Shown: positions 10,905 to 11,812 of the stretch, in pieces
Position numbering within the stretch: the stretch's first letter is position 1
Layout: each line of letters begins with the position of its first letter
From: an uncultured Bacteroidia bacterium
GTDB lineage: Bacteria > Bacteroidota > Bacteroidia > J057 > CALLMJ01
Direction of reading: 5' to 3'
NCBI GenBank assembly: GCA_938006875.1
Contig: CALLMJ010000072.1
Coordinates: 1 to 52,965, forward strand
DNA: 52,965 nt
Program-made: the position numbers and the translations under genes
Notes under the pieces: model-generated
What the model was told of the DNA's origin: nothing
Databases searched by the model: none
What the model saw: only the letters and a program-made list of their open reading frames with translations

Positions 10905-10999
10905 AATTTGATGTATTTATAAAAAATCATTGGATTAAACTTTACTTTTGGATTTTAATTGCTTACATAGTTTCAACAAGTTGTAAAAAAGAAATACGT
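10905..10999 (+). pseudogene. Possible lipoprotein signal-peptide remnant
   Basis: A short frame without a usable ATG reads FLLKFDVFIKNHWIKLYF then WILIAYIVSTSCKKEIR and a stop. A hydrophobic stretch followed by STSC and two lysines looks like a lipobox and the start of a lipoprotein that ends five residues later. It could be a decayed gene end beside the repeat cluster, or chance. Weakly supported. Confidence 0.3.
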
Positions 11000-11080
11000 T
11001 AGAGTTTATGAACAATTCATTAAAAATGGTTTACCAGTTAATGGTTAGCGATTAATGAGGAAATCTAAAAGATTTTGGAT

Positions 11081-11620
11081 ATTCGGTTGTTGAGTAGTGA
11101 GTGAAGCGAACATACCGAAACAACCGCTTCTCCACGCAAAATGGTCATTTCGGTACGGCTACGCCTACTCAATGACTAAAACATATGCGGTTGTTGAGTA
11201 GTGAGAGAAGCGAACATACCGAAACAACCGCTTCTCCACGCAAAATGGTCATTTCGGTACGGCTACGCCTACTCAATGACCACAATTACGGCTACGGCTA
11301 CTCAATGACCACAGGTACGGCAACGCCTACTCAATGACCAATCCTTTTGTATATATTCGGTTGTTGAGTAATGAGTGAAGCGAACATACCGAAACAACCG
11401 ATTTCCCACGAAAAATGGTCATTTCGGTACGGCTACGCCTACTCAATGACCACAATTACGGCTACGCCTACTCAATGACCAGTCCATAGGTATATATTCG
11501 GTTGTTGAGTAGTGAGAGAAGCGAACATACCGAAACAACCGATTTCCCACGAAAAATGCTCATTTCGGTACGGCTGCGCCTACTCAATGCCCACAGGTAC
11601 GGCTACGCCTACTCAATGAC
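11081..11620. repeat. Cluster of four REP-pair (BIME-like) repeats
   Basis: Four units of about 96 bases start at 11081, 11185, 11355 and 11496. Each joins an A hairpin (43 nt, arms CGGTTGTT/AACAACCG; 11084-11126, 11188-11230, 11358-11400, 11499-11541) to a B hairpin (arms GGTCATT/AATGACC, apex GGCTACGCC). B is an inverted, diverged version of A: both, read the right way, run GGTyrTTGAGTAG...TACCGAAAyrACC. The 29-base 3' half of B is repeated in tandem after units 2 (twice), 3 and 4. Units 1 and 2 share one A-B linker and units 3 and 4 another. There is no coding capacity. This resembles REP pairs mobilised by RAYT enzymes in other bacteria. Confidence 0.88.
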
Positions 11621-11812
11621 TAATCCTTAAAATAATCCTGACTAAACATCAGAAAATAAATTTTCAACATTTAGATAAATCAAACTATAATCCTTTGTAA
11701 TTAGGTTTCAAAATGTTGATATCTCTTACATAATTAATTTAAAAACAATTAGTTATAGCCTAAACGAAAATTCAGTTCAAAATCTCTATTATTCAAAAGG
11801 CTCTACATGATT

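Follow-up and report, generated by a model that had tools for sequence, protein, structure and literature searches.

The hairpin array found in the window (the whole 52,965-nucleotide stretch of DNA analysed here) is most likely the variable centre of a MITE, itself a derivative of an IS5-family (DDE) insertion sequence (IS), in which a REP-like hairpin pair expands in tandem; we give this reading a probability of about 0.8. The original prediction had described REP pairs in a BIME-like array and had likened them to REP sequences moved by RAYT transposases. The dispersed, REP-like inverted palindromes withstood the analysis, and mobilization by a RAYT did not.

Four A-linker-B hairpin pairs, with B inverted relative to A, occupy positions 11085–11621 of the window. 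Hairpin A, with the layout GGTTGTT-GAGTA-loop-TACCGA-AACAACC, lies on the forward strand at 11085–11125, 11189–11229, 11359–11399 and 11500–11540 in units 1 to 4, respectively; hairpin B, with the layout GGTCATT-GAGTA-GGCGTAGCC-G-TACCGA-AATGACC, lies on the reverse strand at 11143–11177, 11247–11281, 11417–11451 and 11558–11592. All eight were located by pattern, and the two of unit 1 by folding as well. The stems of A and B differ at two positions, both compensated (GGTTGTT/AACAACC versus GGTCATT/AATGACC), and the B stem of unit 4 is degenerate (GGGCATT/AATGAGC). Partial B copies of 29 bases follow in tandem on the reverse strand, two after unit 2 (11282–11339) and one each after unit 3 (11452–11480) and unit 4 (11593–11621). 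Units 1 and 2 contain the linker GCTTCTCCACGCAAAAT and units 3 and 4 a different one, GATTTCCCACGAAAAAT; the two linker types are two unit lineages. The inverted pairs, the two compensated stem differences, the tandem B copies and the grouping by linker had all been predicted, and all were recovered from the window sequence. Shuffled sequences gave an expectation of 0 matches to the core patterns in the window. Compared with such shuffles, both hairpins folded better, whether treated as single-stranded DNA (z = −2.5 for A and −3.4 for B) or as RNA, and no Rfam family matched them.

To place the array in its genomic context, we used three Bacteroidota assemblies: that of the window genome (G000; 2.87 Mb in 185 contigs, rated 97% complete), that of a congener (G001) and a distant MAG (G059). 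The exact core TGAGTAG-N(4,30)-TACCGAAA had 114 matches in the window genome versus 0 for a reversed-pattern control, and hairpin A with up to three mismatches occurred 84 times. Overall there are about 80 A copies; window-genome counts beyond the examined stretches come from such pattern searches. In the window together with 38 stretches around copies we identified 78 A-B pairs in approximately 40 arrays, so the hairpins are dispersed over the genome rather than limited to this locus. The order was invariably A(+)-B(−), with a linker of 17 nt (16–18 nt in nearly all pairs). The arrays were nearly all intergenic, and neither the arrangement of the neighboring genes (++ 7, −− 6, −+ 5, +− 4) nor the orientation of the arrays showed a preference. 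Searches of phage and plasmid records yielded none of the hairpins. An occurrence on viral contigs was also considered: of 38 isolated matches, only three had a stem of at least 6 bp, those three were one identical sequence, and the matches were treated as chance.

Comparison of the copies revealed a 789-bp element at 11000–11788 (forward strand), of which the array forms just the middle; this element had been missed in the original prediction and was recognized as a complete MITE copy by its conserved ends and unrelated flanks. Blocks of ~85–110 bp on the left and 180 bp on the right are common to most arrays, and both end sharply in an inverted repeat of ~15 nt (TAGAGTTTATGAACA on the left and TAGAGATTTTGAACA on the right, matching at 13 of 15 positions). 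Within the window, the left terminal inverted repeat (TIR), TAGAGTTTATGAACAA, spans 11000–11015 and is followed by the left arm at 11016–11084. The right arm, at 11622–11773, was delimited by alignment and by its match to another locus, L161, the right end of which it resembles over the full length (170 nt, 96% identity). The right TIR, found by genome scan and comparison of copies, lies on the reverse strand at 11774–11788 (reverse complement TAGAGATTTTGAACT, consensus TAGAGATTTTGAACA). In a scan of the genome, TAGAGWTTWTGAACA with no more than one mismatch had 60 occurrences, most of them at arrays, whereas the control had 2. MITE ends were present at 37 of 41 arrays, both ends at 21 and one end at 16 (often cut by contig ends), and were missing from 4; the few hairpin copies outside any MITE are at L150, L165 and L179. 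Between the common ends there are 1 to 6 A-B units, and 17 copies with both ends measured 236–931 bp. Homology between the flanks of different loci stops at the TIRs, outside of which the sequences are unrelated. The window genome and its congener share a 350-bp copy with a single pair at 98% identity, compared with ~80% for aligned genes; this match also ends at the TIRs, and the flanks differ.

The bases bordering the element fit a 3-bp ANT target, a habit of the ISL2 group within the IS5 family. An ANT triplet was present on the right side in 17 of 17 copies and on the left side in most, and possible target-site triplets in the window are GTT at 10998–11000 and ATT at 11788–11790. Across the presumed 3-bp duplication, the middle base agreed in 12 of 17 copies versus 9 expected, which is not significant (317 of 2000 shuffles were as good). 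No empty site was found in G000 versus G001 at three elements, as the two congeners are not syntenic across the tested loci. That gene order breaks at every MITE tested (three elements) is an observation in its own right; the MITEs may sit at sites of rearrangement, or the two genomes may just share little synteny. Two other observations concern the right end. An identical 40 bp past it is repeated on several contigs (contig ends L151, L155 and L250), probably owing to assembly ambiguity at a repeat. Beside a truncated right end, at L248:159–183, lies another palindromic-type repeat, TTGCTGCTCTTTGCTCGCAATGACG, which resembles the CGTC-tagged REPs.

A candidate source of the element was identified in the same genome. 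At the start of one contig lies the C-terminus of a transposase, which stops immediately ahead of the 16-nt terminus TAGAGTTTATGAACAA; a search with this peptide located a second, decayed copy of the IS in the window genome, as well as four IS ends of this kind in G001. The longer reading frame matched Pfam DDE_Tnp_4 (2.6e-17) and NCBIfam transpos_IS5_4 (5.9e-17). The MITE left terminus is identical to the IS 3′ end over 16 nt, and the IS is present in both congeners. The alignment between the left arm and the IS 3′ end continues past the TIR, so the MITE probably arose from the IS by deletion. Intact copies of the IS were not found: in G000 there are C-terminal pieces only, and G001 has a single nearly complete copy, which is broken. 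Of the two IS ends one could be compared, and no match between the IS 5′ end and the right TIR was obtainable. An IS630/Tc1-mariner origin with TA duplication had been considered because of the TA at both ends, and was dropped, the linked transposase being of the IS5 family. We propose that an internal deletion of the IS would have produced a MITE with a left TIR and arm, one or more pairs of A, a 17-nt linker and B, and a right arm and TIR, and that the IS transposase, acting in trans on the MITE ends, may disperse it. The TIRs, a terminus in common with a transposase-encoding IS of the same genome, and the many copies with unrelated flanks are traits of IS5-family MITEs.

The stepwise growth of the array that had been proposed was borne out by the junctions between units, in which right-arm sequence (CCAATCCTT, CCAATCC) is joined to left-arm sequence (GTATATATTC) or to shortened forms. 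Because they join right arm to left arm, extra units arose by tandem duplication of the element centre and not by new insertion. Units were also more alike within a locus than between loci (mean identity 93.5% versus 89.9%), which, together with the junction sequences, indicated that the pairs multiplied in place. Replication slippage or unequal exchange, aided by the hairpins, could account for this multiplication.

It had further been proposed that differences between stems are compensated. Hairpins were collected using patterns without any stem requirement, and the stems were tested afterwards. Around a constant TGAGTA...TACCGAA frame we found eight or more distinct, complementary outer stems in the window genome (GGTTGTT, GGTCATT and GGTCGTT with their complements), G001 (GGGCGTT, GGTGGCT), G059 (GGTGATT, GGCCATT) and Anaerolineae (GCGGGTT). 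A full stem was formed by 12 of 17 distinct arm pairs in G001 (mean 5.0 and maximum 10 in 1000 shuffles) and by 11 of 22 arm pairs in G059 (7.2 for shuffles, maximum 11). For the window genome taken alone the number of full stems was not above shuffles (23 versus 18.9, maximum 26), but the number of paired cells was (309 versus 290.7, maximum 305). Compensation is thus real across the window genome and its relatives, with full stems in the window genome alone at shuffle level. The apical stem of the G059 hairpins varies as well, with complementarity kept (CCTGTAAGG, CTCGCAGAG and AACGAAGTT). The constant part is the internal frame TGAG(TA...TAC)CGAA, whose bases suggest a tandem G·A mismatch. 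It was also observed that bases just beyond the 7-bp stems at the G059 loci L213–L232 show an excess of complementarity over chance (24 extra pairs versus 11.2; 34 of 5000 shuffles), as if the hairpins had been inserted into pre-existing palindromes or terminators. The same frame is carried by Chloroflexota MAGs of the Anaerolineae/Anaerolineales (L080, L103, L111, L113 and L140), and the stem in L080 is 17 bp.

Some hairpins occur outside the MITE. At L165:3825–3859 a DUF7948/SBBP gene contains an isolated B hairpin in frame, which adds a peptide that contains SFRYGYAYSMT. At one site of the IS, four copies have a 24-nt short-form hairpin, AGGTTAGTGAGCATAGTCGAACTA, and two lack it, a filled/empty pair for a TGAG..CGAA hairpin (L271:140–240 and L277:350–450 versus L272, L273, L275 and L274). 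G059 carries lone hairpins without the IS. It follows from these three findings that the hairpins spread, or once spread, by a route of their own. These findings, together with the frame in Anaerolineae, are what an independently mobile hairpin pair would leave, one moved by another enzyme, with the MITE serving just as its carrier or as a preferred landing site. This alternative is rather unlikely given that in this genus nearly every pair sits in the MITE and shows the same junctions, a pattern that points to a single capture, after which the pair spread as part of the MITE. In the MITE reading, REP-like hairpins with a constant frame and interchangeable stems would have been captured by the MITE and would have a second mode of spread, now or formerly. 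Two forms, the long TGAGTAG-stem-TACCGAA and the short TGAGCYTGTCGAA, occur together in one genome; a short hairpin such as GGGTT-GAGCCTGTCGA-AACCC stands beside the long form in Anaerolineae Nak19 (L103, L113), and G059 carries short forms as well. We tentatively suggest, as one possibility, that the TGAG...CGAA hairpins form a REP superfamily that spans phyla and is defined by an internal loop able to form tandem G·A mismatches, that they are moved by an enzyme other than a Y1 RAYT, and that they were captured here by an IS5-type MITE.

Retention of the arrays for a host function, as terminator, mRNA stabilizer or binding site for the nucleoid or gyrase, like exapted BIMEs, would fit their intergenic location and the stable hairpins on both strands, and the stem compensation implies selection on the folded form. 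We nevertheless regard it as improbable, because the arrays lack a preferred orientation or gene arrangement, the hairpins match no Rfam family, and the sites differ in the congener.

Mobilization by a RAYT was the part of the original prediction that found no support. A true REP/BIME system, in which inverted REP pairs are cut and pasted by a RAYT (TnpA-REP, Y1 HUH) missed by the assembly, would account for inverted palindrome pairs that are intergenic, dispersed and variable in their stems with compensation, all of which we observed. The assemblies also break at arrays, so that any gene lying between two of them might have gone missing. However, a search for Y1_Tnp, in which control genomes gave matches as expected, returned no match in the window genome or G059 and none that was significant in G001, where a loose threshold gave one match (E 0.06) in a 746-aa frame; the three genomes are rich in copies and rated 97–100% complete. 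Likewise, no Y1_Tnp gene flanked by these hairpins was found, and in four Anaerolineae genomes that carry the frame, none of the hairpins lay within ~1.5 kb of the RAYT-type genes. The GT[AG]G foot is absent from the stem base, where mostly TTC or TGC precedes; GTAG is present only within the internal loop. Finally, IS5-type ends bound the arrays, and the dispersal unit is a TIR-bounded MITE. A RAYT (Y1_Tnp) was therefore rejected as the mobilizer in these genomes, and with fragmented assemblies there is a small chance that its gene is missing from all three, which leaves this explanation very improbable. An integron attC site was rejected by motif comparison, its box order being inverted.

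That REP-like hairpin pairs ride in an IS5-type MITE and expand there into BIME-like arrays means that a BIME-like array alone is no proof of a RAYT, and the spread of REP palindromes without a cognate transposase becomes a testable question. Searching the literature for nested REP/MITE systems, we found nothing, and text searches of the open literature for the hairpin core sequences gave no match; the constant frame with interchangeable stems, which occurs in Bacteroidota as well as Anaerolineae, sets apart a REP group that these core-sequence searches did not recover.

Among known systems, the REP/BIME/REPIN elements with their RAYTs (PMC3733652, PMC6006769) share with these arrays the inverted palindrome pairs, the clustering, the compensated stems, variable loops with GGC/GCC termini and the occurrence of a REP within a coding gene; they differ in that here there is no GTAG foot and no host Y1_Tnp, and the pair lies inside a TIR-bounded MITE. 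The CGTC-tagged REPs, a dispersed superfamily without a dedicated transposase that has been reported in Bacteroidetes too (PMC3733652), are similar in these respects, but the conserved part here is the internal TGAG...CGAA frame and not an unpaired CGTC end. With IS5-family MITEs the elements have in common TIRs shared with an IS5-family element, a non-coding sequence and flanks fitting a 3-bp ANT target, and they depart from them in the expandable internal hairpin array. Compared by architecture, they resemble the BOX element of Streptococcus pneumoniae, whose ends boxA and boxC surround a variable number of tandem boxB modules and which has MITE features (PMC3049150): both have two conserved ends and a variable centre, are intergenic and form hairpins. 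Unlike in BOX, the central module here consists of a pair of REP-like hairpins in inverted orientation, and an IS5-family element identified in the genome matches one of the ends.
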